A stretch of 33,143 nt of DNA from Acidobacteria bacterium RIFCSPLOWO2_12_FULL_67_14b (lineage in GTDB: Bacteria > Acidobacteriota > Vicinamibacteria > Vicinamibacterales > UBA2999). The notes beneath the pieces are model-generated. The model was given only the letters and a program-made list of their open reading frames with translations. It was not told where the DNA came from and did not search any database. Positions 5,071-28,109 of the stretch are shown here, one piece after another; position 1 is the stretch's first letter; each line of letters begins with the position of its first letter. The stretch lies in NCBI GenBank assembly GCA_001768615.1, contig MELE01000111.1:2284-35426 (forward strand), read 5' to 3'. Position numbers and translations under genes: made by a program.

Positions 5071-6987
5071 ATGGCCAAACGCCGAGCCGCCCTCGCCGCC
5101 CTCTGCATCGCTGCCCTCTCCGCCACGACCGTGGCGCAGCAGTGGCCGCACTACGCCGGCGATCAGGCCGCGTCCCACTACTCGCCTCTCGATCAGATCA
5201 CCGCCGCGAACGTCGGCAGGCTCGCGGTGGCCTGGGAATGGAGGCCGAACGAAAAGGTGCTGCCCCAGTTCGGCACCTGGCCCGGCGCCTTCCAGAACAC
5301 GCCGCTGATGATCGACGGCGTGCTCTACGTCAGCACGCCCTACAACCAGGTCGCCGCGCTCGATGCGGGCACCGGCAGGGAACTGTGGCGGTTCGATCCG
5401 AAGGTCTACGAAGACGGGCAGCCTCCGAACGGCCAGGGCTTCGCGCATCGCGGCGTGGTGGCGTGGCGTGACCCCTCGACTTCGCTCGGGGCAGGTGGCG
5501 ACCGCCTCCGCATCTTCATCAACGCGCGCTACAAGCTGATCCAGCTGGACGCGAAGACCGGGCAGCCCGTCGACGGCTTCGGCAAGGGCGGCACGGTCGA
5601 CCTCAGCGAGGGCCTGGTCTGGGCCATCAACAAGAAGCACTACACCAACACCTCGCCGCCCATCATCTACAAGGACCTGATCATCGTCGGCAACGGCGTC
5701 GGCGATCGGCTCACCTACAAGAACGATCCGCCTGGAGACGTCCGGGCATTCCATGCCCGGACGGGAAAACTAGTGTGGAAGTTCAACACCATCCCGCAGC
5801 GCGGCGAGTTCGGCAACAACACCTGGGATGGCGGCTCGTGGCAGTTCACCGGGCACACCAACGTGTGGGCGCCGATGAGCGTCGACGTGCAGCGGGGGCT
5901 GCTCTACATGCCGGTGAGCACGCCGAGCAACGACTATTACGGCGGGCGAAGGCCCGGCCAGAACCTGTTTGCCGAATCGATCGTCTGCCTCGATGCGAAT
6001 ACCGGCGCCCGCAAGTGGCACTTCCAGATCGTGCATCACGGCCTGTGGGACTACGACCCGGCCTCGGCGCCGAACCTGGTGACGATCACGGTGGACGGCA
6101 AGCGCATCGACGCGGTGGTGCAGCTGACCAAGCAGGGATGGGCGTTTGTCTTCGATCGCGTGACGGGCCGCCCGGTGTGGCCGATCGAGGAACGCGCGGT
6201 CCCGCGCAGTGACGTGCCGGGCGAAGCCTCGTGGCCGACACAGCCCTTCCCCACGCGGCCGCCCGCGTTCGAATCCCAGGGCGTGACCCTGGACGATGCG
6301 TTCGATGCGACGCCGGCGCTCAAGGCCGCGGCGCAGGCCGAGCTGAAGAAGTACCTGCTGGGGCCGATCTACACCCCGCCATCGATGCAGGGCACCGTGG
6401 CGCTGCCGGGGGTGTGGGGCGGCGCCAACTGGGGCGGCGGCGCGTTCGATCCGGACACCGGGCGCCTCTACGTGAAGACGACGCGCAGCCCGGCGATCTT
6501 CAAGATGGAGCCGTTCGACAAGAGCCGGCAGCCGGCGGATCGCCTCGACGAAGTCGATGCCGAGTACGTTCAGCGCAGCCCCTCGTCGTTCGTGGACGGC
6601 GTGCCGATCCTCAAGCCGCCGTACGCGCACCTGGTGGCGATCGATCTCAATCGCGGCGAGATCGCGTGGAAGGTCCCGTTCGGCGACGCCCCGGACCTGC
6701 GATCGGCTCCGAAGTTGAATGACGTGCCACTTCCCGACCGGCTCGGCGCCGCCGGACCGCCCGGCGCCATCGTCACCAAGGGCGGCCTGATCTTCGTCGG
6801 CGGCAACGACGTGGCCCTCTCCGCGTTCGACAAGGCCACGGGCCGCGAGCTCTGGCGGCACGGGCTGCCGCGGCAGGCCACTGCCACGCCGATGACGTAT
6901 CTGGCTCCGGACGGCCGCCAGATGATCGTGATCGCGACCGGCCGAGGCGAGGACACGGCCCTCGTCGCCTTCTCCGCGCCAAGGTAG
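5071..6987 (+). CDS. PQQ-dependent dehydrogenase (quinoprotein, eight-bladed propeller)
   Basis: 638 aa. The signal peptide ends near TTVAQQ. The body is a membrane-glucose/alcohol-dehydrogenase-type PQQ propeller with repeated tryptophan-docking motifs: AALDAGTGRELWRFD, LIQLDAKTGQPVDGFG, RAFHARTGKLVWKFNT, VCLDANTGARKWHFQ, HGLWDYDPASAPNL, GAFDPDTGRLYVKTT, AIDLNRGEIAWKVPFGD and SAFDKATGRELWRHGLP. Family members oxidise alcohols or sugars in the periplasm. There is no C-terminal haem c motif (CxxCH), so electrons must pass to a separate partner or to quinone. Residues about 134-142 (DPSTSLGAG) are encoded by a dispersed repeat, described separately. The stop codon lies within the GTAG edge of a palindromic repeat. 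Substrate unknown. Confidence 0.9.
   Translation: MAKRRAALAALCIAALSATTVAQQWPHYAGDQAASHYSPLDQITAANVGRLAVAWEWRPNEKVLPQFGTWPGAFQNTPLMIDGVLYVSTPYNQVAALDAGTGRELWRFDPKVYEDGQPPNGQGFAHRGVVAWRDPSTSLGAGGDRLRIFINARYKLIQLDAKTGQPVDGFGKGGTVDLSEGLVWAINKKHYTNTSPPIIYKDLIIVGNGVGDRLTYKNDPPGDVRAFHARTGKLVWKFNTIPQRGEFGNNTWDGGSWQFTGHTNVWAPMSVDVQRGLLYMPVSTPSNDYYGGRRPGQNLFAESIVCLDANTGARKWHFQIVHHGLWDYDPASAPNLVTITVDGKRIDAVVQLTKQGWAFVFDRVTGRPVWPIEERAVPRSDVPGEASWPTQPFPTRPPAFESQGVTLDDAFDATPALKAAAQAELKKYLLGPIYTPPSMQGTVALPGVWGGANWGGGAFDPDTGRLYVKTTRSPAIFKMEPFDKSRQPADRLDEVDAEYVQRSPSSFVDGVPILKPPYAHLVAIDLNRGEIAWKVPFGDAPDLRSAPKLNDVPLPDRLGAAGPPGAIVTKGGLIFVGGNDVALSAFDKATGRELWRHGLPRQATATPMTYLAPDGRQMIVIATGRGEDTALVAFSAPR
5471..5495. 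repeat. Dispersed repeat inserted in frame in the PQQ dehydrogenase
   Basis: The segment has the core CTCGACTTCGCTCGGGGCAGG and near-palindromic ends (CCCC...GGGG). It is read in frame as DPSTSLGAG, between WR and GDRLRIFINARYKL of the propeller. The same core, degenerate, occurs at 20969-20993 inside nadA. From general knowledge, very similar CTCGACTTCGCTC repeats are scattered in many GC-rich bacterial genomes. Confidence 0.65.
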
Positions 6988-7009
6988 AGGCGGGTCTTTA
7001 GACCCGCCT
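6984..7009. repeat. Palindromic repeat, CTTTAG-core family (copy 1)
   Basis: GTAGA followed by an 8-bp perfect stem GGCGGGTC (6989-6996), loop TTTA, and GACCCGCC (7001-7008). The stop codon of the upstream gene uses its TAG. It has no T-tract, so it is not a typical intrinsic terminator, though it could form an RNA hairpin. Related copies lie at 8765, 13394 and 19846. Confidence 0.75.
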
Positions 7010-7026
7010 ATTCAAGGAGCTCGACG

Positions 7027-8746: not shown

Positions 8747-8764
8747 GGCAACGCATAGGCATAC

Positions 8765-8794
8765 GGCGGTGTAGGGCGGAACTTTAGTTCCGCC
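8765..8794 (+). repeat. Palindromic repeat, CTTTAG-core family (copy 2)
   Basis: A GGCGGTGTAG lead is followed by GGCGGAAC (8775-8782), TTTA and GTTCCGCC (8787-8794). All 30 bp recur exactly, in inverted orientation, at 13394-13423, on the other side of the tRNA-Arg-bounded segment. The stem differs from copy 1 at two positions on each side (GT/AC against AA/TT), preserving pairing. Confidence 0.8.
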
Positions 8795-8842: not shown

Positions 8843-8920
<78 letters not shown>

Positions 8921-9033
8921 AACTCCTTCCGGATCAATTACTTCCACGGACGAGCCCATTTCCCGATGGGCGCGTCATTAAGAATTTGGGTCATGTCCGG
9001 CAAGTCCCACGCCCTCAACAAGTTACAGATCAT

Positions 9034-13334: not shown

Positions 13335-13380
13335 CTACGAACCAGGAGGTCGCACGTTCGAGTCGTGCTGGGCGCACCAA
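13335..13380 (+). repeat. Attachment-site-like direct repeat, right copy (3' half of tRNA-Arg)
   Basis: Identical to 8876-8921. It begins in the anticodon loop, so it cannot make a tRNA; the acceptor 5' strand and D arm are missing. Confidence 0.85.
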
Positions 13381-13393
13381 TTGATTCGACGGT

Positions 13394-13423
13394 GGCGGAA
13401 CTAAAGTTCCGCCCTACACCGCC
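13394..13423 (-). repeat. Palindromic repeat, CTTTAG-core family (copy 3, inverted)
   Basis: Exact inverted copy of 8765-8794, only 13 bp outside the right attachment repeat. GCCCTACAC is then repeated (13411-13419 and 13421-13429), a partial tandem copy of the tail. Confidence 0.8.
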
Positions 13424-13443
13424 CTACACTGCCGCGCAATGAC

Positions 13444-15271: not shown

Positions 15272-15423
15272 ACACGGGTTCAGGGTTCACAGGTTTCAAG
15301 GGTTCACGGTTCATCAGGTTCACGGTTCAGGGTTCACGAGTTTCAGGATTCAAGGCCGGCGCGTCCAGGAGAGCACCCTTGAACCTGGTGAACTTTGAAC
15401 CGGTGAACTGTGAACCGTGAACC
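15272..15423. repeat. Heptameric GGTTCAC repeats in inverted arms
   Basis: The left half (15278-15352) is a degenerate run of GGTTCA-type 7-nt units. The right half (15378-15423) runs as the complement (TGAACCTGGTGAAC and so on to GTGAACC), with about 25 bp between. The whole intergenic space of the divergent GH3 and moaB genes is built from it. Confidence 0.75.
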
Positions 15424-15946: not shown

Positions 15947-15952
15947 GGGTAA

Positions 15953-16008
15953 GCTGAAAGCCGATGGCTGAGAGCCGAGAGCTGAAAGCTGAGAGCCGAG
16001 AGCTGATG
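15953..16008 (+). repeat. Eight tandem heptamers GCYGARA at the moeA start
   Basis: Exactly eight 7-nt units (GCTGAAA, GCCGATG, GCTGAGA, GCCGAGA, GCTGAAA, GCTGAGA, GCCGAGA, GCTGATG). Units 2 and 8 each contain an ATG, at 15964 and 16006, both in frame with moeA because six units make 42 nt. Confidence 0.85.
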
Positions 16009-17211
16009 AGGCCGATCAAGGACACGATTCCGCTGGAGGAAGCGCGTGCCTTGATCGACCAGGCGTCGGCGGCGATCGAGCGCCGCGAGCGTGTGCCGCT
16101 GATGGACGCCAACGGCCGCGTCAGCGCCGCCGACGTGGCCTCCACACGCGATGTGCCGCCGTTTTCGCGCGCCGGCATGGACGGCTATGCGGTCATGGCC
16201 GACGACACGTTTGGCGCCAGCCGCTACGAGCCGAAAACGCTTCGCGTGATCGAGAAGGTCTACACCGGACAAGTGCCCTCGGTCCGCGTCCAGCCGGGCA
16301 CGGCCGTCGAAATCGCCACCGGCGCGCCGATGCCCGAGGGCGCCGATGCGGTCGTGATGGTCGAGGAAACCGAGAAGGCCGGCGACCGGGTCCGCATCCT
16401 GACGCCGGTCTATCCCCGACAGAACGTCGGCCGCCAGGGCGCCGACATCGTCATCGGCCAGACGGTAATCACGAGCGGCGACGTGCTGAACCCGAGCCGC
16501 ATCGGCGCGCTGGCCGCGCTCGGCGTCGGCGACGTCGAGGTCTTCGAGAAGCCGACGGTGGCGATCCTGTCGACCGGCAACGAGATTGTCGATCCGGGCA
16601 CGGAGCTCAAACCCGGACAGATCTACGACATCAACAAGTTCACGTTGAGCACGATCATCCGCGAGCACGGGGCCATTCCGAAGCCGTTCGCCACCGCGCA
16701 AGACACCATCGAGGCGCTGGAACGCGCTATCGACGCCGGCGTCTCCTGCGACGTGCTCGTGTTCTCGGGCGGCAGCTCCGTCGGCGAGCGCGATTTAATC
16801 CTCGACGTGATCCGCCGCAAGGGCGAGATCCTGTTTCACGGCATCGCCGTGAAGCCGGGCAAGCCCACCGTGTTCGGCACCATCCACGGCAAGCCGATGT
16901 TCGGCATGCCGGGCTACCCCACGTCGTGCCTGTCGAACGCCTACCTGCTGCTCGTGCCCGCGCTCCGCCGGATCGCGCGGCTGGGCCCGCGCCATCTCGC
17001 CACGGTCTCGCTGCCGCTCGGCCAGCGCATTGTCTCGACCACGGGGAGGCACCAGTTCTATACGGTGCGGATCGTCGATGGCCAGGCGATGCCGGCGTTC
17101 AAGGCGTCGGGGGACATCACGTCGATGTCGGCCGCCGATGGCTACATCGAGATCCCGGCGCAGACCGACATCGTCGAGAAGGGCGAGACGGTGGAGGTGA
17201 GACTCTTCTGA
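16006..17211 (+). CDS. moeA: Molybdopterin molybdenumtransferase MoeA
   Basis: 401 aa from ATG 16006. MoeA inserts molybdate into adenylylated molybdopterin. Motifs: VPPFSRAGMDGYAVMADD, EIATGAPMPEGADAVVMVEE, VAILSTGNEIVDPG, QIYDINKFTLS, FSGGSSVGERDL, GIAVKPGKPTVFG and MFGMPGYPTSCLSNAY, then the C-terminal domain IV (GRHQFYTVRI, SGDITSMSAADGYIEIP). The alternative ATG 15964 would prepend MAESRELKAESREL, which is pure heptamer repeat and absent from the family. It follows moaB by about 60 bp. Confidence 0.95.
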   Translation: MRPIKDTIPLEEARALIDQASAAIERRERVPLMDANGRVSAADVASTRDVPPFSRAGMDGYAVMADDTFGASRYEPKTLRVIEKVYTGQVPSVRVQPGTAVEIATGAPMPEGADAVVMVEETEKAGDRVRILTPVYPRQNVGRQGADIVIGQTVITSGDVLNPSRIGALAALGVGDVEVFEKPTVAILSTGNEIVDPGTELKPGQIYDINKFTLSTIIREHGAIPKPFATAQDTIEALERAIDAGVSCDVLVFSGGSSVGERDLILDVIRRKGEILFHGIAVKPGKPTVFGTIHGKPMFGMPGYPTSCLSNAYLLLVPALRRIARLGPRHLATVSLPLGQRIVSTTGRHQFYTVRIVDGQAMPAFKASGDITSMSAADGYIEIPAQTDIVEKGETVEVRLF

Positions 17212-17303
17212 TCTCAGATCGCAGATTGCGGATTGCAGATTGATTGCAGATCCTCGATCGGCGATCTGCAATCGATCTGCAGTCTGAGATCTGCGATCTG
17301 AAA
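17212..17303. repeat. Heptameric ATCTGAG/ATTGCAG repeats forming inverted arms
   Basis: The whole gap between convergent moeA and the DUF4870-like gene is a 7-nt-period repeat (ATCTCAG, ATCGCAG, ATTGCGG, ATTGCAG...), whose second half is its approximate complement (GCAATCGATCTGCAGTCTGAG...). A related copy lies at 27980-28109. It can fold into a long imperfect hairpin and may end transcription from both sides; that is inference. Confidence 0.75.
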
Positions 17304-17304
17304 T

Positions 17305-17703
17305 CTAGATAGCCCTATGGTCGCGCAATCGCAGCCATCCCCTGGCGATCCGATAGATCGCCCAGATGCCGAGGATGAAGAACCCCACCGCCCAGATCGC
17401 CAGGCCGACGACGACGATCAGGAGCAGGCCGCCGAGCAGGAAGACGAGACAGGACCACGCGAACGCATACCAGAAAGTCCGGATCTGCCAGGTGAAATGC
17501 GACTCGAGCCAGGTGCCCCGGGCCTCGCCGCGCTTCACGTAATTGATGATCACGGCGACGATCGACGGCCATCCGAACACGAAGGCGCCGATCACCGTCG
17601 AGGCGCCGAACGCCCCGATGGCCAGGCCCAGCGCGTGCAGCGCGTAGGTGACGTGGGTGACCGTGATGAGCGAAGGATCGGGCTGCTCAGAACCGGATGA
17701 CAT
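17305..17703 (-). CDS. DUF4870-like four-helix membrane protein
   Basis: 132 aa with hydrophobic segments at about residues 17-38 (ALHALGLAIGAFGASTVIGA), 40-54, 76-100 (FWYAFAWSCLVFLLGGLLLI) and 101-120 (VVGLAIWAVGFFILGIWAIY). The central KRGEARGTWLESHFTWQIRTF matches the DUF4870 / Tic20-like family of small inner-membrane proteins. The function is unknown. ATG 17703 overlaps the end of the outer-membrane barrel gene by 17 bp on the same strand, so translation is likely coupled. Confidence 0.8.
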   Translation of the reverse strand: MSSGSEQPDPSLITVTHVTYALHALGLAIGAFGASTVIGAFVFGWPSIVAVIINYVKRGEARGTWLESHFTWQIRTFWYAFAWSCLVFLLGGLLLIVVVGLAIWAVGFFILGIWAIYRIARGWLRLRDHRAI

Positions 17704-19153
17704 TATCAATCCCCCATACCGTGAGTCGTGAATCGGCGAAGATGCCCTTCACCACGTCGCCGGCCCACATCGTGCCGGCGTAGCCGTTCACCGACCAGTA
17801 CTTCCTGATCGGGATCTCGACGGTGCCTTCGAGCACCGTGCCGAGCGACGAGGCCCCCCTGGCGGCGCGTCCCGAGAAGCCGAAGAAGCGCCCGGTGCTC
17901 GCCGTGGCGCCGCTGCCCTGATACCAGAGATCGGATCCGCTCGCAAGCGATACCCGATGTAGATCCAGACGAGCCTTGACCCGGCCGGGTTCAACCAGCG
18001 CCTGCACGAACGCGTCGCGCAGGTTCATCTGCGCGTAGACGGCCGACAGCGCGTACTTCCTGGAGGAGGGCAACATCTGGAAGAACGTGCCGTGCCGGTC
18101 GTCGAGCGGGTCGCCGTCTCCGGAGGCGAACAGGTAGCCGGCGCGGATCCACGGCCGCCACGGCGCCCGCGTCCATCGGTGGCCGGCTTCCGCGGCCAGG
18201 CTGGCGGCGCGATGGGGCTGGCCGTACCAATCGCCGAATTCGCCCGCGGCCCAGACGACCGTGTCGAGCTCGCCCGCCCGGGTCGCGGCCACGCGCGCGT
18301 GGGACCCGCCGACGGCGGCCACCGTCACATCGACCGGACGATCGATCGACTGCGTGTTGTCCACCACCGCGGCCGACGCCCGCCGATCGCGATAGACATG
18401 GGCGAACGCCTGCCACTCCGTCGGCGACGACGACTTGCGTGTGAACGTGGCGCCCGCGACCTGCACCTTCGGCATCGAAAGGTTCGCGGACTCGTCGTAT
18501 CCCCCCTGCGTCGCCACGAACGCCGACGAGGTGACGTGCCAGGCCGGACGATCCACGTCGACCCGCAGGCCGTCGAACCGGCGCTCGTACAACGACCACT
18601 CGAAGCCGCCAATCAGGCGCGAGTGCAAGCGTTCGCGCTTCAGCGTCTCGAGGGCCGGAAAGGCCGAGGCGTATTCGCCGCCCGACGTGTAGCGCATGCG
18701 TCCGAGCGTCGCGGACATTCGCTGGTCTCGCGTCTTCGCGCGAAGCGTGAGCTCGCTCAGGTAGAGCTGGTAGCTGTAGCGCACGCCGACGGCGGCAAAG
18801 TAGAACGCGCCGGCACCGAGGCCGCCGGGGCCGATCGCCGTGGTCGGCAGGTTCTCCAGGCGCACGTAATTGAACGCGCCAGACAGATCGAAGCGCGTGC
18901 CTTCGACGCGGACCCCGAGCTCGGAGCGATCGCCGAGGTAAAAGTAGGTCGGATCGGCAAGCGGATCCAGCGTCAGCGCGAGCGGATCGACTTTGGGTTG
19001 GAAGTAGGACCACGACTCGATACGCGTGACGTTCGAGAGCGTGCCGGTGACCTTCGGCGAAGCGTCCTGCGCCAGTGCGGGCGGACAAAATGAAACCACG
19101 AAGGCCACGAAGGCCACCACGAAGATCACGAAACCATCCTTGGGTCTGTCCAA
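17687..19153 (-). CDS. Outer-membrane beta-barrel, alginate-export-like
   Basis: About 488 aa from TTG 19153. After a signal peptide (DGFVIFVVAFVAFVVSF, cleaved near ALAQDA) the protein is almost all amphipathic strands with aromatic ends (VRYSYQLYLSELTLRAKTRD, SRLIGGFEWSLYERRFDGLR, VWGIDNVIRF) and finishes in Phe, as outer-membrane barrels do. ATLGRMRYTSGGE, the RAGYLFASGDGDP and HGTFFQMLPSSRKYA stretches resemble the alginate-export/porin family. The substrate is unknown. The signal peptide is encoded by one arm of an intergenic repeat (19092-19201). No ATG or Shine-Dalgarno supports the start; the frame stays open into sodA to 19330, but TTG 19153 gives a normal signal peptide. Confidence 0.75.
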   Translation of the reverse strand: MDRPKDGFVIFVVAFVAFVVSFCPPALAQDASPKVTGTLSNVTRIESWSYFQPKVDPLALTLDPLADPTYFYLGDRSELGVRVEGTRFDLSGAFNYVRLENLPTTAIGPGGLGAGAFYFAAVGVRYSYQLYLSELTLRAKTRDQRMSATLGRMRYTSGGEYASAFPALETLKRERLHSRLIGGFEWSLYERRFDGLRVDVDRPAWHVTSSAFVATQGGYDESANLSMPKVQVAGATFTRKSSSPTEWQAFAHVYRDRRASAAVVDNTQSIDRPVDVTVAAVGGSHARVAATRAGELDTVVWAAGEFGDWYGQPHRAASLAAEAGHRWTRAPWRPWIRAGYLFASGDGDPLDDRHGTFFQMLPSSRKYALSAVYAQMNLRDAFVQALVEPGRVKARLDLHRVSLASGSDLWYQGSGATASTGRFFGFSGRAARGASSLGTVLEGTVEIPIRKYWSVNGYAGTMWAGDVVKGIFADSRLTVWGIDNVIRF

Positions 19154-19201
19154 AAGAGGCTTCGCGTCCTTCGTGGTGATCTTCGTGGCCTTCGTGGTCT
19201 C
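19092..19201. repeat. 9-nt CCACGAAGG repeats in inverted arms (copy 1)
   Basis: The left arm (19092-19136) runs GAAACCACGAAGGCCACGAA and on. The right arm (19167-19201) is its approximate complement (CCTTCGTGGTGATCTTCGTG...), with a ~30-bp loop. On the minus strand the left arm is read F-V-x-F-V and forms the signal peptide of the barrel protein. Copy 2 is at 27066-27180. Confidence 0.8.
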
Positions 19202-19221: not shown

Positions 19222-19824
<603 letters not shown>

Positions 19825-19845
19825 GAGAATCTCCTGTCAGCCACG

Positions 19846-19869
19846 TAGAGGCTGGTCTTTAGACCCGCC
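19846..19869. repeat. Palindromic repeat, CTTTAG-core family (copy 4)
   Basis: TAGA then GGCTGGTC (19850-19857), TTTA and GACCCGCC (19862-19869). It differs from copy 1 (6984-7009) by a single T that breaks one stem pair. It sits between nadA and sodA and its edge coincides with the nadA stop codon. Confidence 0.7.
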
Positions 19870-21011
19870 TAGTGAATCGACAACATCCGATCTAGCGCGA
19901 TCTTAGCCCACTTCTTTTGCTCGTCCGGCACGACGATTTCATTGACGACCTCACCGTCCACCAGGGCATCGAGCACCCAGAGCAGGTGGTTCGGCGACAC
20001 GCGGAACATCGTCGAGCACAGGCAGCCGAACCGGTCGAGCGAGACGACGGTCTTGGCCGGCGCCACCTCTTCCGCCAGGCGATGCACGAGGTGGACCTCG
20101 GTGCCGACGGCCCAGATGGAGCCGGCCGGGCTCTCGCGCACGGACTTGAGGATGTGTTCGGTCGAGCCGCTGTCGTCGGCCGCCTGCAGCACGTCGAACG
20201 GCACTTCGGGGTGCACGATCACCCTGATCCCGGGATGCTCGCGGCGGACCTGTTCGATCTGCGCCGCGGTAAAGCGGACATGGACCGAGCAGTGTCCTTT
20301 CCAGAGAATCAGCGACGCGCGCTCGATCTGGTTCCTGGTCAGGCCGCCGAACGGCTCGTGCGGATCCCACACCACCATCCGATCGAGCGGCACGCCCATC
20401 CGCCACGCCGTGTTGCGGCCCAGGTGCTGATCGGGCAGGAACAGGATCTTCTCCTTCCGCTGCCACCCCCACGCGAGCGACGCGGCCGCGTTGGCCGAGG
20501 TGCAGATGCCGCCGCCCTGCTCGCCGACAAACGACTTAATCGACACGGCGGAGTTGATGTAGGTGATCGGCACGACGCGCGAGGCGAGGCCGAGCTGCTG
20601 CAGCTCCGCCCAGCACGTCTCGAGCTGATCGGGCGCGGCCATGTCGGCCATCGAGCATCCGGCCGCCAGGTCGGGCAGGATGATCTTCTGATGCGGCAAC
20701 GCGAGCACGTCCGCGCTCTCGGCCATGAAGTGCACGCCGCAGAAGACGATGTAGTCGGCGCGGGGATGCCTGGCGATTGAGCGCGCGAGCTTGAACGAGT
20801 CGCCGGTGTGGTCGGCGAAGCGGATGACCTCGTCGCGCTGGTAGTGATGCCCGAGGATGACCAGCCGATCGCCCAGGGCGGCGCGGGCTGCGGCAATCCG
20901 CAGCGCCATCTCGTCGTCCGGCAGGTTGAGGTAGGCCTCCGGCAGCGGCTGGCGCTCGCGGATGGAGGCCTTCTCGACTTCGTTCAGGACCGGTAGAAAC
21001 GTCGTCGTCAT
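19869..21011 (-). CDS. nadA: Quinolinate synthase NadA
   Basis: 380 aa. NadA condenses iminoaspartate with dihydroxyacetone phosphate to quinolinate in NAD synthesis, using a [4Fe-4S] cluster. Motifs: LVILGHHYQRDEVIRFADHT GDSFKL, IVFCGVHFMAESADVL, LPDLAAGCSMADM (C119), WKGHCSVHVRF (C241), VHPEVPFDV and DRFGCLCSTMFRVSPNHLLW (C330/C332); the three usual cluster cysteines are present. The N-terminal residues ~6-16 (LPVLNEVEKAS) are encoded by a degenerate dispersed repeat. nadB and nadC are not in the window. No Shine-Dalgarno or close -10 was found. Confidence 0.95.
   Translation of the reverse strand: MTTTFLPVLNEVEKASIRERQPLPEAYLNLPDDEMALRIAAARAALGDRLVILGHHYQRDEVIRFADHTGDSFKLARSIARHPRADYIVFCGVHFMAESADVLALPHQKIILPDLAAGCSMADMAAPDQLETCWAELQQLGLASRVVPITYINSAVSIKSFVGEQGGGICTSANAAASLAWGWQRKEKILFLPDQHLGRNTAWRMGVPLDRMVVWDPHEPFGGLTRNQIERASLILWKGHCSVHVRFTAAQIEQVRREHPGIRVIVHPEVPFDVLQAADDSGSTEHILKSVRESPAGSIWAVGTEVHLVHRLAEEVAPAKTVVSLDRFGCLCSTMFRVSPNHLLWVLDALVDGEVVNEIVVPDEQKKWAKIALDRMLSIH
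20969..20993. repeat. Degenerate dispersed repeat in the nadA N-terminus
   Basis: Core CTCGACTTCGTTCAGGACCGG, aligned with the repeat inside the PQQ dehydrogenase (5471-5495; CTCGACTTCGCTCGGGGCAGG). Read on the minus strand it encodes PVLNEVEKA. Confidence 0.5.
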
Positions 21012-22854: not shown

Positions 22855-22993
22855 CCGACGCGTACCCGGGCAGGCAGGGAAGTTGGGTGCAAAGCCCACA
22901 CGGTCCCGCCACTGTGAGCGGTCACGATCCGCGAGTCAGGAAACTGCCGGTCCAAGGGGCATGTCCACTTCAGGCGCGCGAGACGCCTGGGAG
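22855..22993 (+). promoter_or_regulatory. Cobalamin riboswitch
   Basis: It contains the conserved core in order: GGGAAGTTGGGTGCAAAGCC, ACACGGTCCCGCCACTGTGA, and the B12 box AGTCAGGAAACTGCC (22934-22948). Downstream, CAGGCG (22971-22976) and CGCCTG (22984-22989) form a stem whose last base joins the Shine-Dalgarno GGGAG (22989-22993) of btuB, so the expression platform probably controls translation. B12 binding should turn the operon off. Confidence 0.92.
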
Positions 22994-22999
22994 ACGACC

Positions 23000-25288
23000 A
23001 TGACTGCTGCACTCCGTCCGCTCACGCGGACTTTCGTTGCGTTCTCTCTCCTTTTCTTCATCGGCTCTTCCGTGGCGGCGCAAGCTGCATCCCAACTCAC
23101 CGGCCGCGTCGTCGACCCGGACGGCAAGCCCGTCGCCCATGCCGAGGTCGTGATCAGCGGATCGACCGCGGCGCCGCAGCGCGTGCTCACCAACGCCGAC
23201 GGCGCGTTCGAGGTGCCGGCGCTGCCGGCGGGCCGCTACGACCTCCGCGCCGGCGCGCCCGGACTCGTGGCCGACGCCGTGGCCATCACCGTCACCGACG
23301 GCTCGCCCGCCACCGCCGACATCACCCTGCGCGTCAGCGCGATCAGCGAGACGCTGGTCGTGTCGGCCTCGCAGATCGACCAGCCGCTGTCGCGGACACC
23401 CGACAGCGTCACGGTGATCGCCGGCCGCGAGCTCGAAGCGCGCCAGCAGTTCACCCTCGGCGCGGCGCTGCGCTCGGTGCCGGGCCTCACCGTGCAACAA
23501 AGCGGCGGCCCCGGCACGCTGACCTCCCTCTTCACCCGCGGCGGCGAGTCGGACTTCACGCTCGTGCTCGTGGACGGCGTCCGCGCCAACGCCTTCGGCG
23601 GCGGCATCGACCTGTCGCAGGTGCCGCTCGAGAACGTCGAGCGCATCGAGGTGGTCCGCGGCCCGCAGAGCGCGTTGTACGGATCGGACGCCATCGGCGG
23701 CGTCGTGCAGGTGATCACGCGCAGCGGCGGCCGGCCCTCCGCCACGGCCCACGTTGAAGGCGGCAGCCGCGACATGCGCCGCGCGTCGGGCGCCACCACC
23801 GGCGAGGTCAACGGCCTCCGCTGGCAGGCGGGCGCCAATTACTTCGAGGACGCCGGCTTCACCGGCCGGGCCGCCAACGGGCAGACCGTGAGCAATGACG
23901 CTGCGCGGGAGTCGCAGGTGTCGGCGTCACTGGGCTGGCGTCAGGCCTCGAGCGGCACCGACATCCAGGGCTCGGCGTCGTATGTCGGCACCGACCGCGG
24001 ATCGGCGGGCCCGTTTGGATCGGATCCCGCGGGGCGCTTCGCCGGTGTCGATACGGTCTCGCGCGGCACGACCCGGCGCGCCGGCGGCGGGCTCCGCTGG
24101 GTGCAGCCGTGGTTCGGCGCCGGCAGCCGCGTGCGCCAGCGCGTCGAGTTCGACGCCGCCGACTACGACCTCACCTTCAGGAGCCGGTTCGGGACCTCCG
24201 AGGGCAACACGCACCGGGTGCACGCGCGCGTGCAGACCGACATCGCCGCCAACGCCGCCTTCGGCTTCTCGGGCGGACTCGAGTGGCTGGGCGAGCGCGG
24301 CGGCAGCACGTTCATCACCGCCGGCACGAGCGGCGAGGTGCCCGTCGAGCGCGGTGTGCTCGGCCTGTTCGGCGAAGGGCGCTGGAACGCCGGGGATCGC
24401 GCGACCATCACCGCGGGCATCCGGGGCGAGCGCATCACGCGTGACGCCCTTCCGGGCGACCCGAACGAGTTCTCGCCGCGGCCTGACTTCCCCGATGAAA
24501 CCATCACCTCGGTGAACCCCAAGATCGCGGCCGCGTTCCTCGTGAGCGGAGCGTCACCGGCCAGCGGCGCGCGGGCGTGGACCCGGCTGCGCGGCGCGTT
24601 CGGCACGGGCATCCGTCCGCCGGACGGGTTCGAGATCGCCTTCACCGACAACTCGGGGTTGAAGCCCGAGCGGAGCACGAGCGGCGAGCTCGGCGTCACG
24701 CAGGCCCTGGCCGGCGGCGCGGTGCAGCTCGATGCCACGGCGTTCCTCAACCACTACACCGACCTGATCATTTCGGTCGGCCGCGCGTTTGCGGGCGTCA
24801 GCCGCTATCGCACCGACAACATCTCGAACGCGCGCGCCCGTGGCGTCGAGGCCTCGGCCGCGGCGCGCGTGGGACCGGGCGTGGACATCCGCGCGGCCTA
24901 TACGTTTCTCGACAGCGAGATTCTGGCCGTCAGCGGCGCCGTCACCGCACAAGCGCCGTACGCCGTCGGCGACGCGCTCCTCCGTCGTCCGCGCCACCAG
25001 GGCTCCCTCGATGCCGCGTGGACGCGTTCGCAGGCGAGCGCGTTCGCGCAGATCACGATTCGCGGCAAGGCGCTGGATGCCGAGCCGGCATTCGGTCCTT
25101 CCGGCGGCCTGTATCAGAACGAGGGCCATACGGTGGTGAACGCCGGCGGCGCGTGGAAACCCGTCCGCGCGGTCGAAGTCTTCGCGCGCGTGTTGAACCT
25201 GTTCGATCGCGGCTACGAAGAAGTGCTGGGCTACCCGGCCCCGGGCCGGACCGCGTACGTGGGTGCCCGCTTTGCTGTGGGCCGATAA
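23000..25288 (+). CDS. btuB: TonB-dependent vitamin B12 receptor BtuB-like
   Basis: 762 aa. A signal peptide (to about residue 25, VAAQAAS) is followed by a carboxypeptidase-regulatory-like Ig-type domain (QLTGRVVDPDGKPVAHAEVV to ~residue 105), which is extra relative to E. coli BtuB. The TonB plug comes next (SRTPDSVTVIAGRELEARQQ, LVDGVRANAFGGGIDLSQVP, VERIEVVRGPQSALYGSDAI GGVVQVITR), then a 22-strand-type barrel ending in YVGARFAVGR. It takes up corrinoids across the outer membrane. Substrate assignment rests on the cobalamin riboswitch and the BtuCDF genes that follow. ATG 23000 follows GGGAG by 6 nt; reading further upstream enters the riboswitch. It overlaps btuD by 26 bp. Confidence 0.92.
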   Translation: MTAALRPLTRTFVAFSLLFFIGSSVAAQAASQLTGRVVDPDGKPVAHAEVVISGSTAAPQRVLTNADGAFEVPALPAGRYDLRAGAPGLVADAVAITVTDGSPATADITLRVSAISETLVVSASQIDQPLSRTPDSVTVIAGRELEARQQFTLGAALRSVPGLTVQQSGGPGTLTSLFTRGGESDFTLVLVDGVRANAFGGGIDLSQVPLENVERIEVVRGPQSALYGSDAIGGVVQVITRSGGRPSATAHVEGGSRDMRRASGATTGEVNGLRWQAGANYFEDAGFTGRAANGQTVSNDAARESQVSASLGWRQASSGTDIQGSASYVGTDRGSAGPFGSDPAGRFAGVDTVSRGTTRRAGGGLRWVQPWFGAGSRVRQRVEFDAADYDLTFRSRFGTSEGNTHRVHARVQTDIAANAAFGFSGGLEWLGERGGSTFITAGTSGEVPVERGVLGLFGEGRWNAGDRATITAGIRGERITRDALPGDPNEFSPRPDFPDETITSVNPKIAAAFLVSGASPASGARAWTRLRGAFGTGIRPPDGFEIAFTDNSGLKPERSTSGELGVTQALAGGAVQLDATAFLNHYTDLIISVGRAFAGVSRYRTDNISNARARGVEASAAARVGPGVDIRAAYTFLDSEILAVSGAVTAQAPYAVGDALLRRPRHQGSLDAAWTRSQASAFAQITIRGKALDAEPAFGPSGGLYQNEGHTVVNAGGAWKPVRAVEVFARVLNLFDRGYEEVLGYPAPGRTAYVGARFAVGR

Positions 25289-26060
25289 CGTCTCGTTTCG
25301 CTATGCGGCCGGCGGGCCCCTGGTGGTCGACGGCGTCACCGTCCGCCTCGCGGACGGGGCGCTCGCCGGCATCCTCGGCCCGAACGGGTCCGGCAAGACC
25401 ACGCTGCTGCGGCTGCTGAGCGGCACGCGACGGCCCACGTCCGGCCGCGTGCTGCTCGGCAATCGGCCCATGGATCGCCTGTCGCGGCGCGAGGTTGCCC
25501 GGCAGATCGCGGTCGTGCCGCAGGAAACCGAGCTCGCGTTCGAATACAGCGTGATCGAGATCGTCCTGATGGGCCGCCATCCCCACCTCGGCGTGTTCAC
25601 CGTCGAGGGCCCGGAAGACATCCGGATTGCGCAGGAGGCCCTCGCCGCCACCGGCACGGCCCACCTCGAGCGCCGGCCCTTCCACGAGCTGAGCGGCGGC
25701 GAAAAGCAGCGCGTCGTCATTGCCGCGGCGCTGGCGCAGTCGGCCGACCTGCTCCTGCTCGACGAGCCGACGGCGTCGCTGGATCTCGGGTATCAGCTCG
25801 ACATCTCCTCGCTGCTGCAACGGCTGAACCGCGACCACGAAGTGACGATGGCGATCTCGACGCACGATCTGAACCTGGCGGCGGCGATTTGCCGCGAACT
25901 GATCCTGATGCGTGACGGCCGCGTGCTGGCGGCGGGTCCCACCGAAGAGGTGCTGACGTCGGACAACGTGCGCCGGCTCTACGACGTCGAAGCCGACGTG
26001 CACGTCAACGACGACACCGGCCATATGACCGTGGTTCCGGTGAGACGGATCGCGCGATGA
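25263..26060 (+). CDS. btuD: Vitamin B12 ABC transporter ATPase BtuD-like
   Basis: 265 aa of the FecCDE/BtuCDF class. Walker A GPNGSGKT (39-46), Q-loop VVPQETE, signature LSGGEKQ (142-148), Walker B LLLLDEPT (162-169) and switch His200 (AISTHDLN). It drives corrinoid import through BtuC. The GTG start lies inside the btuB 3' end; the stop overlaps the btuC start as ATGA, so translation is coupled. Confidence 0.93.
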   Translation: MPALLWADNVSFRYAAGGPLVVDGVTVRLADGALAGILGPNGSGKTTLLRLLSGTRRPTSGRVLLGNRPMDRLSRREVARQIAVVPQETELAFEYSVIEIVLMGRHPHLGVFTVEGPEDIRIAQEALAATGTAHLERRPFHELSGGEKQRVVIAAALAQSADLLLLDEPTASLDLGYQLDISSLLQRLNRDHEVTMAISTHDLNLAAAICRELILMRDGRVLAAGPTEEVLTSDNVRRLYDVEADVHVNDDTGHMTVVPVRRIAR

Positions 26061-27058
26061 ACGTCCGGCGCCGCATGATCACCGTGGTGTCCGCCTACGC
26101 GGTGTTCGCGGCGGCGGTGATGGTGTGGGCGCCCACCGTCGGCAGCACGGACATCTCCCTGTCGAAGGCCTTCGACCGGTCGATCCCATGGGACCAGAAC
26201 GTGGACGCGCAGATCTTCTTCGTCGCGCGCTTGCCGCGCGTGCTCTCCGGCGCGATCGTCGGCGCCAGCCTGGCGTCGGCCGGCGTGGTGCTGCAGGCCA
26301 TGTTGCGGAACCCGCTGGCCACGCCGTTCACGCTCGGTGTCTCGGCGGGCGCGGCGCTGGGGGCGATGATTGCGATTGCCATCGGCCTCGACCTCGGCGC
26401 GATGGGCGTGTCGTCGGTGCCGATCGCCAGCTTCGCCGGCTCGCTCGTCGCCATCGCCATCGTCTACTTTCTCGCCTCCTCGCAGAAGCGCGGGCTCTCG
26501 ACCAACGTCCTGCTGCTCGCGGGCGTCACGCTCAACTCGTTCTTCTCGGCGCTGATTCTCTTCGTCCAGTACATGGCGGACTTTACCCAGTCGTTCCGCG
26601 CGGTGCGCTGGCTGATGGGGGATCTCGACGTCGGCAGCTACAGTCCGATCCTCGCCGCCATCCCGTTCATCGTCGCGGCCTTCGCGGTGTTTGCCATCCT
26701 CCCGCGCACGCTCAACCTGTTGACGATGGGCGAGAACGTGGCGGCGGCAAGGGGCGTGGAGGTCATCCGGGCGCAGCGGTGGGCGTTTCTCAGCGCGTCG
26801 CTCGCCACCGGCGCGGCGGTGTCGCTGGGCGGACCGATCGGCTTCATCGGGATCGTGGTGCCGCACCTGGTGCGGTTGATGGTGGGATCGGATCACCGGA
26901 TCGTGCTGCCGGCCGCGACGCTGTTCGGCGCGGCGTTTACGGTCCTGTGCGACCTGACGGCGAGGACGATCATGGCGCCGATGGAGTTGCCGGTGGGGAT
27001 CATCACAGCCCTGATCGGCGGGCCGTTCTTTCTCTGGCTGTTGGTGAAGAAGTCATGA
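26057..27058 (+). CDS. btuC: Vitamin B12 ABC transporter permease BtuC-like
   Basis: 333 aa, FecCD family with about nine to ten membrane segments. Conserved stretches: RLPRVLSGAIVGASLASAGV, LQAMLRNPLATPFTLGVSAG, AALGAMIAIAIG, GLSTNVLLLAGVTLNSFFSA, RAVRWLMGDLDVGSYSPIL, GPIGFIGIVVPHLVRLMVGS DHR and ELPVGIITALIGGPFFLWLL. It starts in the btuD stop (ATGA), and its own stop overlaps the btuF start (ATGA at 27055). Confidence 0.93.
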   Translation: MNVRRRMITVVSAYAVFAAAVMVWAPTVGSTDISLSKAFDRSIPWDQNVDAQIFFVARLPRVLSGAIVGASLASAGVVLQAMLRNPLATPFTLGVSAGAALGAMIAIAIGLDLGAMGVSSVPIASFAGSLVAIAIVYFLASSQKRGLSTNVLLLAGVTLNSFFSALILFVQYMADFTQSFRAVRWLMGDLDVGSYSPILAAIPFIVAAFAVFAILPRTLNLLTMGENVAAARGVEVIRAQRWAFLSASLATGAAVSLGGPIGFIGIVVPHLVRLMVGSDHRIVLPAATLFGAAFTVLCDLTARTIMAPMELPVGIITALIGGPFFLWLLVKKS

Positions 27059-27969
27059 CATCAAACGAAACCACGATGAGCACGAAGAGAACCACGAAGG
27101 CCACGAAGCCATGTTTGTACTCAAGAGGTCTTGGTTTCGTGTTCTTCGTGATGATCTTCGTGATCTTCGTGGTCTCGTTTCAGGCGCAGCGCCCGCAGCG
27201 GATCATCTCGCTGGTCCCCGCCCTCACCGAAATGCTCTTCGCCATCGGTGCGGGTCCGCAAGTGGTGGCGGTGAGCAGCTTCGACGAGTACCCGCCGGAG
27301 GCGACGAAGCTTCCGCGCGTGGGCGCGCTGCTCGATCCGGACACCGAGCGCATCATCTCGCTCACGCCGGACCTCGTGGTCACCTACGGCAGCCAGGTCG
27401 ATCTGCAGGCGCAGATGAAGCGCGCCGCCATCACGACCTTCGACTACCGCCACGGCGGCCTGGCCCACATCATGACGACCATGCGGGAGCTCGGCGCGCG
27501 CACGGGCCACGTGGCCGAGGCGGAGACCGCCGCCACCGGCATCGAAGTGCGGATAGCGGCCGTGCGCGCCCGGGTGGCGGGCAAGCCGCGGCCGCGGGTC
27601 TTGCTGGTGTTCGGCCGTGAGCCCCGGTCGCTGCGCAACATCTACGTCAGCGCGGGCCGCGGGTTCCTGCACGACATGCTGGAGGCGGCCGGCGGGCAGG
27701 ACGTGTTCGCGGACGCGGACCGCGAATCGATCCAGGCCACGACCGAGCACATCCTGGCGCGGGCCCCGGATGTGATTCTCGAATTGCGATCGGAGAACAT
27801 CCCGGACGAGTCGGCCCTTCGAGAAGAACTCGGCCCGTGGGGGCGGCTCGCATCGGTGCCGGCCGTGAGGAACAAGCGCGTGATCCTTCTCACGGGGCAG
27901 GCGGTCACCGTCCCCGGACCGCGCGTCGCCGATGGCATCGAGCGGATGGCGAAGGCCCTGCACCCATGA
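27055..27969 (+). CDS. btuF: Vitamin B12-binding periplasmic protein BtuF-like
   Basis: 304 aa. After an unusual 45-residue leader the class III binding protein begins at QRPQRIISLVPALTEMLFAI, continues VGALLDPDTERIISLTPDLV, LLVFGREPRSLRNIYVSAGR, FLHDMLEAAGGQDVFADADR and ends ILLTGQAVTVPGPRVADGIE. The leader has a long basic n-region (KRTTKATK) and a hydrophobic core (GFVFFVMIFVIFVVSF, residues 27-42) encoded by a 9-nt repeat arm, see 27066-27180. Start options are ATG 27055 (overlapping the btuC stop) and ATG 27076; both precede the core. It delivers corrinoids to BtuCD. Confidence 0.9.
   Translation: MTSNETTMSTKRTTKATKPCLYSRGLGFVFFVMIFVIFVVSFQAQRPQRIISLVPALTEMLFAIGAGPQVVAVSSFDEYPPEATKLPRVGALLDPDTERIISLTPDLVVTYGSQVDLQAQMKRAAITTFDYRHGGLAHIMTTMRELGARTGHVAEAETAATGIEVRIAAVRARVAGKPRPRVLLVFGREPRSLRNIYVSAGRGFLHDMLEAAGGQDVFADADRESIQATTEHILARAPDVILELRSENIPDESALREELGPWGRLASVPAVRNKRVILLTGQAVTVPGPRVADGIERMAKALHP
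27066..27180. repeat. 9-nt CCACGAAGG repeats in inverted arms (copy 2)
   Basis: The left arm (27066-27110: CGAAACCACGA...GGCCACGAAGCC) and complementary right arm (27134-27177: GGTTTCGTGTTCTTCGTGAT... to CTTCGTGGTCTCGTT) flank a short loop, the same layout as 19092-19201. It lies inside the start of btuF: the left arm is read as the basic region, the right arm as the hydrophobic core. Confidence 0.8.
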
Positions 27970-27979
27970 ACCGTCGATC

Positions 27980-28109
27980 TCAGCTGGCAGATCTCAGATC
28001 TCAGATCGATTGCAGATGGCAGAACGGTGGATTTCCGCGGCGAGCCAATGCCGAATTCGAACTTCTGCAATTGATCTGCAATCTGAGATCTGCGATCTGC
28101 AATCGACAG
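27980..28109. repeat. Heptameric ATCTGAG/ATTGCAG repeats (copy 2)
   Basis: The left arm (27980-28025, including CAGATCTCAGATCTCAGATC) and the complementary right arm (28064-28109, CTTCTGCAATTGATCTGCAA...) are related to 17212-17303, with a non-repetitive centre of ~40 bp (GGATTTCCGCGGCGAGCC). It fills the 150-bp gap between btuF and the DUF71 gene. Confidence 0.75.

Follow-up and report, generated by a model that had tools for sequence, protein, structure and literature searches.

How do two exported proteins encoded 8 kb apart come to start in copies of the same repeat, and does this reflect a recurring process? The question arises from a window of 33,143 nt (the whole stretch of DNA analysed, from contig MELE01000111.1 of Acidobacteria bacterium RIFCSPLOWO2_12_FULL_67_14b), in which the initial annotation had noticed that an outer-membrane barrel gene and btuF use one repeat family in their signal peptides. 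The answer reached here is that a hairpin repeat lying behind stop codons has probably entered downstream genes and become part of the signal peptides of exported proteins. The features concerned are listed in Table 1.

Table 1. Positions in the window of the repeat copies, the adjoining genes and other features mentioned in the text.
Feature	Positions	Strand	Remarks
Outer-membrane barrel gene	17687..19153	minus	PF13372 Alginate_exp match
Predicted barrel signal peptide	19070..19153	minus	MDRPKDG-FVIFVVAFVAFVVSF-CPPALA, then Q; TTG start
Barrel hydrophobic run	19088..19132		
Element arm 1, barrel copy	19092..19135		minus reading gives most of the barrel hydrophobic run
Element loop, barrel copy	19136..19157		contains in-frame TTG 19153-19151 (minus)
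Element arm 2, barrel copy	19158..19201		minus reading TTKATKITTKDAK, same open frame as barrel
Fe/Mn superoxide dismutase (SOD) gene	19222..19824	minus	upstream of barrel; stop 20 bp before element
btuC-like permease (FecCD)	26057..27058	plus	upstream of btuF
btuF-like periplasmic binding protein	27055..27969	plus	PF01497
Element copy 2, at btuF	27067..27176		same family as barrel copy
Cobalamin riboswitch (Rfam RF00174)	22855..22965		start of 22883-25288 reading frame, upstream of btu genes
Short-unit family GATCTGCAATC	17210..17305 and 27967..28107		inverted copies
Short-unit family GGTTCACGG	15277..15423		inverted copies
Short-unit family AGCTGAAAGC	15952..16000		
Small palindrome GGCGGGTCTTTAGACCCGCC	6984..7015 and 19845..19876		two copies
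Small palindrome GGCGGAACTAAAGTTCCGCC	8762..8794 and 13394..13426		two copies
46-nt repeat	8876..8921 and 13335..13380		identical copies 4.5 kb apart
tRNA gene	8844..8917		overlapped by first 46-nt copy

The product of the barrel gene is AlgE-like by domain match (PF13372 Alginate_exp, 3.1e-17). The whole segment 19092-19201 at its start is a single hairpin repeat copy of about 110 bp made of CACGAAG units, in which two inverted arms, 84% complementary, enclose a loop of 22 nt; as RNA this copy is predicted to fold to -83.1 kcal/mol (shuffles: mean -33.5, sd 3.9). Translation of the minus strand from the TTG in the loop gives DRPKDGFVIFVVAFVAFVVSFCPPALAQ, and the in-frame peptide ahead of the mature part of the barrel is MDRPKDGFVIFVVAFVAFVVSFCPPALAQ. 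This translation, together with the paired arms, bears out the original observation that the gene reads a repeat arm in frame as its hydrophobic run. The arm had been placed directly before the ALAQ cleavage site; it does precede the site, but stands three residues off, with CPP between. If translation begins upstream in the SOD gene, arm 2 would be read as the n-region. The second protein, a Peripla_BP_2 (PF01497, 1.5e-33), is unrelated to the barrel, as had been stated, and its gene does have the same arm-loop-arm layout: the btuF-copy arm at 27133-27176 is 86% identical to barrel-copy arm 2, and the copy folds to -60.0 kcal/mol (shuffles -30.5, sd 3.6). Here the ATG of btuF (27055) overlaps the stop codon of btuC (TGA 27056-27058) and the entire element follows in frame within btuF, reading MTSNETTMSTKRTTKATKPCLYSRGLGFVFFVMIFVIFVVSFQAQ. 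The name btuF fits the cobalamin riboswitch found upstream of the btu genes. By eye, the btuC/btuF junction looks as if it collects repeats: in G005 (L167) an array of GGCTTGGGG short units occupies the signal-peptide region of btuF behind the btuC stop, and other hairpins or short-unit arrays lie in this same region in G009 (L180), G020 (L177) and G025 (L179), with the units GGCGAGCC/GGCTCGCC, GCGCGAACCC/GGGTTCGCGC and GGTGGCACAGGTCT/AGACCTGTGCCAC, respectively.

The element is about 110 bp long, and 12 aligned copies gave a model (profile R1) of about 108 positions. One arm carries CACGAAG units behind GAAAC, the other arm is its mirror, and the loop between them is variable. In the aligned copies the distance from unit to unit is mostly 9 or 12 nt, with some copies deviating; both values are divisible by three, so that an arm is able to stay in one reading frame. 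Copies differ from one another by entire steps of 9 and 12 nt. The 7-nt units hardly vary, the two-base spacers are variable, non-covarying and unpaired, and a covariation test for a selected RNA structure failed, two-sided change being found in only 1 of 34 pairs. CCACGAAGG occurs five times in the window (0.27 expected), a number reached by none of 100 shuffles, and in the genome from which the window comes (the own genome, G000; 5.31 Mb in 258 contigs) there are 83 + 84 matches to the unit pair CACGAAGNNCACGAA versus 0 + 2 for the reversed pattern. Profile R1 produced 93 rows at E<=0.01 in this genome, mostly one place on both strands; its matches to both window copies (E 3.4e-22 to 6.3e-20) arise by construction, as both are among the 12 model copies. 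With the own genome counted each time, R1 has hits in 21 of 40 genomes of relatives and, under stricter filtering, in 36 of 297 from the phylum. The element is thus a short, multi-copy, inverted-repeat structure, as in a MITE-like mobile repeat, and filled and empty sites have diverged (judged by eye only). Two other identities were considered and rejected. A REP (a palindrome of 20-40 bp) does not accord with a model of 108 positions, and neither a GTAG nor a CGTC tag is present at the ends of the element, whose consensus is AGAAACC / GGTTTC; a known RNA family was rejected as the Rfam gathering thresholds give only a tRNA and the cobalamin riboswitch, elsewhere in the window.

The element usually lies behind a stop codon and not in a signal peptide. 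The own-genome loci that were fetched cover 159 of the 167 unit-pair matches (8 lie outside them) and hold 65 clusters, and junction types were assigned with a simple purpose-built gene finder. Among 58 typed junctions, 40 are tandem, 18 convergent and none divergent, whereas control gaps of at least 60 bp in the same genome (n=113) comprise 69 tandem, 11 convergent and 33 divergent junctions (p=2e-7). Divergent junctions are similarly scarce in congeners (2/69, p=0.0016) and in two other genera (1/56, p=0.026), and clusters deep within predicted genes number two in each of these three sets. The median distance from the element to the nearest stop codon in the own genome is 8 bp, and 44 of the 58 lie 0-20 bp away. 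Of the traits of a terminator, the hairpin and the position behind the stop were seen, while T-containing tails are only short; by default the element would seem to serve as a 3' hairpin.

Against this background, signal peptides derived from the element were counted at gene starts and at orthologous loci in the genus, whose draft assemblies range from 20 to 410 contigs. In all there are 19 genus instances in five protein families, or 20 with one in another genus (G020), and at all five genus loci some relatives are without the element. Four own-genome genes begin in or before an element: the barrel gene, btuF, a PQQ-propeller gene (L090, PF13360) and an M55 peptidase gene (L109, PF04951). At the barrel locus, the element is present in six of the eight genus genomes that have the gene, own included (G000, G001, G004, G005, G006 and G008; the gene is absent from G002), always behind the SOD stop, ahead of the mature part and in one and the same F-V frame. 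At the corresponding site in G003 and G007 the element is lacking, and a short hydrophobic run without the repeat overlaps the end of the SOD gene. At the btuF locus it is present in five of nine (G000, G001, G002, G004 and G008; G006, where a contig end falls inside the element, was excluded from the count), the start overlapping the btuC stop (ATGA or GTGA) and the element following in frame, in G004 as MTTKDTKKKITKHTNLLGLVFFVSFVGTFVSFVVAFQT; btuF has an ordinary signal peptide at the same start in G003, G007 and the outgroups G014, G017 and G039. The PQQ-propeller locus has it in three of five (G000, G001 and, decayed, G007; none in G002 and G005), and in G001 the arm is frame-shifted, reading LRVLRV and then FVVVFFV. 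The M55 locus has it in two of three (G000 and, decayed, G008; none in G002), and an amidohydrolase locus (PF01979) has the CACGAAG element in three of five (G001, G004 and G007; none in G003). The own-genome amidohydrolase start (L300, G000:C20) has, in the same place, an unrelated CGCAGAT/ATCTGCG hairpin that reads MTQITKPGPQMTPITQIKRRDGFLKNLICVICVICGPGGLIGVISGQQ and folds to -79.9 kcal/mol; elsewhere in 0.40 Mb of own-genome loci there are three CGCAGAT-type unit pairs and none of the reversed pattern. Of 38 gene starts printed within 45 bp of 75 clusters in the congeners, 10 belong to element signal peptides (4 barrel, 3 btuF, 3 amidohydrolase), the remaining 5 congener cases being picked up by searching for orthologues. 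In two other genera, 24 gene starts that face an element include one clear and one ambiguous case, both in G020 (15 starts), with none among the nine starts shown for G013. The clear case is a SpoIID-family gene (PF08486) with ATGA followed by the element, reading MTTPRRPRRPRRSRTVLGIFVCFFVSFVVPVSPQA. In the ambiguous one, an M16 peptidase gene (L308) that was excluded from the count, ATGA is followed by the element in another frame, giving a long Arg-rich n-region (PRRPRRSRRSR) before a native-looking h-region. Also outside the count, an array of CCCCAAGCC in the G006 barrel gene (L139) reads EPSPQASKPPSPPA just after the cleavage site, at the mature N-terminus. The recurrence suspected from the window alone is therefore upheld by these 19 instances in five families and the one in G020, but it is by local coincidence that two cases fall within 33 kb, given four cases among the 65 clusters of the fetched own-genome loci. 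The refutation named beforehand, that close relatives share a signal peptide free of the repeat, is not borne out: the element is in the same frame in six of eight genomes, and only G003 and G007 have the short hydrophobic run in its place.

In the tree the element-free pair G003 and G007 is nested inside the genus, so that gain and loss look alike; the shared element could stem from a single old insertion followed by one loss, or have been gained twice. The signal peptides of the barrel and the amidohydrolase in G003 contain TTCGTG stretches (TTCTTCGTG and AACTTCGTGGTGGCG, respectively), which may be remnants or seeds of the element. If they are seeds, short F-V stretches of a native signal peptide could have grown in place by slippage and arm copying, a course that would also suit the differences between copies by whole units. 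We consider this alternative to insertion unlikely, since the same long two-armed form with GAAACC/GGTTTC ends recurs at many non-coding sites behind stops and the barrel loop is, by eye, alike in six species; the G003 stretches could equally be remnants of a deletion.

A more sceptical reading would have the element be solely the 3' hairpin of the upstream gene (a terminator or mRNA stabiliser), the downstream reading being incidental and the proteins mis-started or decaying. The position of most own-genome copies just behind stops and the strong folding of both window copies would be expected on it, but each mature part is intact and still recognised as a member of its family, and a usable downstream start is missing or lies within the conserved part. 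Past the cleavage region the next in-frame start comes after 45-67 codons in five of the six barrel genes (8 in the sixth) and after 6-57 codons in the other 14 genes, at btuF inside the conserved domain; a true start downstream of the repeat, which had been set as a refutation, was thus not borne out. The frame, moreover, is open in all 19 genus instances despite changes of length, although this is no independent test, as an intact gene in part demands an open frame. We therefore regard the hairpin-only reading as improbable. That a G+C-rich genome coding F and V as TTC and GTG, both among its ten most coding-enriched codons, has simply made hydrophobic signal peptides that resemble the repeat is scarcely credible in view of the inverted second arm, the genome-wide copies and the element-free orthologues, and for the window copies it is refuted by the paired arms.

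The proposed entry of the element into signal peptides was compared with several controls. In the own genome 33 gene starts face an element no more than 160 bp away; the four of them that lie in or before it all belong to genes with a signal peptide or of an exported family, as opposed to 8 of the 29 others with a signal peptide of their own (4 and 29 genes, one-sided Fisher p=0.012; whether a protein is exported was decided by eye). It should be noted that the exported status of the M55 and amidohydrolase families was taken from the signal peptides of orthologues, and the M55 case in this test rests on signal peptides themselves. Genes with a start called in the element but an ordinary ATG after it were reassigned by eye and not counted (C176, C47:14253, C9 and C205 in the own genome; L217, L222 and L254 in congeners), and the N-terminal membrane anchors of C124 and C77:22789, which are among the 29, were not taken as signal peptides. 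When each strand of the element was scored for a start codon with a hydrophobic run after it and no stop before the end of the element, GTG codons within arms being accepted as starts, 63 of 76 own-genome and 47 of 102 congener strands passed, against 64 of 3560 dinucleotide shuffles and 38 of 562 other intergenic 100-mers; adding a net-positive n-region left 12/76, 14/102, 30/3560 and 22/562, respectively. Hydrophobicity was compared over 12-residue windows, whose mean Kyte-Doolittle values are 2.52-3.59 (median 2.98) for all 20 element peptides, inside or above the range of 2.23-3.16 (median 2.57) for 15 hand-picked native ones. An h-region of at least 10 residues, as in a Sec signal peptide (type I), is present in all 20, and net charge before it is at least 1 in 16, with the uncertain starts taken as chosen; the four without net positive charge are the barrel peptides of G000, G001 and G005 and the PQQ peptide of G000, for which an ATG farther upstream would contribute Arg residues. 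By eye, the barrel, PQQ, M55 and amidohydrolase genes have A at -1 before Q, with A/V/T/L/I at -3, and the motif is weaker at btuF and SpoIID. The element peptides are predicted to work as secretion signals.

The start codon of the barrel gene is uncertain because the hairpin is very stable and the TTG is hidden in it. On the folding model, a stem-loop enclosing the TTG should hinder initiation there, which leaves two possibilities: translation begins within the SOD gene and ribosomes read on into the element, or initiation at the TTG is weak. An in-frame TTG occurs in all six genus genomes with the barrel element, and its distance from the SOD stop is 2 mod 3 in all six species with lengths from 41 to 68 nt; the constancy of this remainder despite the varying length suggests that the first arm is, or was, translated too. 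The barrel frame is open upstream into the SOD gene in five species. In G004 a stop closes it just before the element, so that there the TTG is the farthest upstream start possible.

Given its position, frame and recurrence, the orthologous loci with and without it and the lack of a good downstream start, we propose the following course of events. A multi-copy, mostly non-coding hairpin repeat would land a few bases behind a stop codon and, where the downstream start overlaps or abuts that stop (ATGA/GTGA) or lies inside the preceding gene, would enter the next reading frame. Such arrangements are common: in the own-genome loci 60 of 217 tandem pairs have a gap of 10 bp or less, 24 of them a 4-bp overlap. 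The spacing in threes would usually hold the entered frame in register; the arm read first, as T-T-K (or P-R-R), would provide a basic n-region and the arm read second, its reverse complement, as F-V-x, a hydrophobic h-region. In front of an exported protein the element would replace the native signal peptide, the cleavage region (A before Q) being retained, and might be tolerated because this N-terminus is cut off and only charge and hydrophobicity are needed, both of which the arms could provide. In front of a cytosolic protein it would spoil the N-terminus, and selection would presumably remove the insertion. It is possible, though we offer this tentatively and with some doubt, that hairpin repeats in general are ready-made signal peptides and a repeatable bacterial route to replacing or creating them, as arms that are reverse complements with frame-keeping spacing supply basic and hydrophobic segments, and their tendency to lie behind stops would bring them to the N-termini encoded downstream in tight operons; the occurrence of two unrelated repeats in the same place at the amidohydrolase gene, CACGAAG in G001, G004 and G007 and CGCAGAT in G000, would fit this wider view.

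Other short-unit repeat families and small palindromes lie in the window (Table 1). Because the first of the identical 46-nt copies overlaps a tRNA gene, the second may be left over from a tRNA, in which case the DNA between the copies would be an integrated stretch.

Rickettsia palindromic elements (RPEs) occur at various places in many, mostly cytosolic, proteins. They are described in PMC2229807 as palindromes of 105-146 bp in frame within protein genes (Ogata 2000); the CACGAAG element differs in being mostly non-coding, and its counted cases lie at the N-terminus of exported proteins. REP or RAYT-associated palindromes are likewise multi-copy and extragenic, with proposed roles in termination and mRNA stability, but they are 20-40 bp long, and the title of PMC3733652 names GTAG and CGTC tags for them, as against about 110 bp of CACGAAG units and GAAACC/GGTTTC ends here. 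A closer likeness is to the RU-2 / YAPL and RU-1f repeats of enterobacteria (Delihas 2007), small intergenic inverted repeats with open frames joining genes (PMC2759123, PMC2229807). At YPO1552 the predicted signal peptide consists in part of RU-2, and its homologues elsewhere have unrelated signal sequences; a few more loci with predicted signal peptides or membrane helices are mentioned there. This is the same kind of event, an inverted-repeat element supplying a predicted signal peptide; among the matches listed in a literature search covering few subscription papers, it was the one direct precedent found. For the RU repeats a single locus with an exported protein was worked out, most of the others being small predicted genes, whereas the CACGAAG element is found in five conserved families in a genus and one elsewhere, with element-free orthologous sites, 7-nt units, entry at stop/start overlaps and a second repeat family. 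Judged by sequence comparison, what we describe is a recurrent, comparatively supported variant of a repeat-to-signal-peptide event with published precedents.

One practical consequence is that gene-calling software may put the start of an exported protein in the wrong place beside such repeats. To our knowledge, the origin of new targeting signals is poorly documented. The element would represent a concrete, repeated source of such signals at several loci, with bearing and free relatives side by side, and as relatives with and without it are available at the same loci, the origin step is directly testable.
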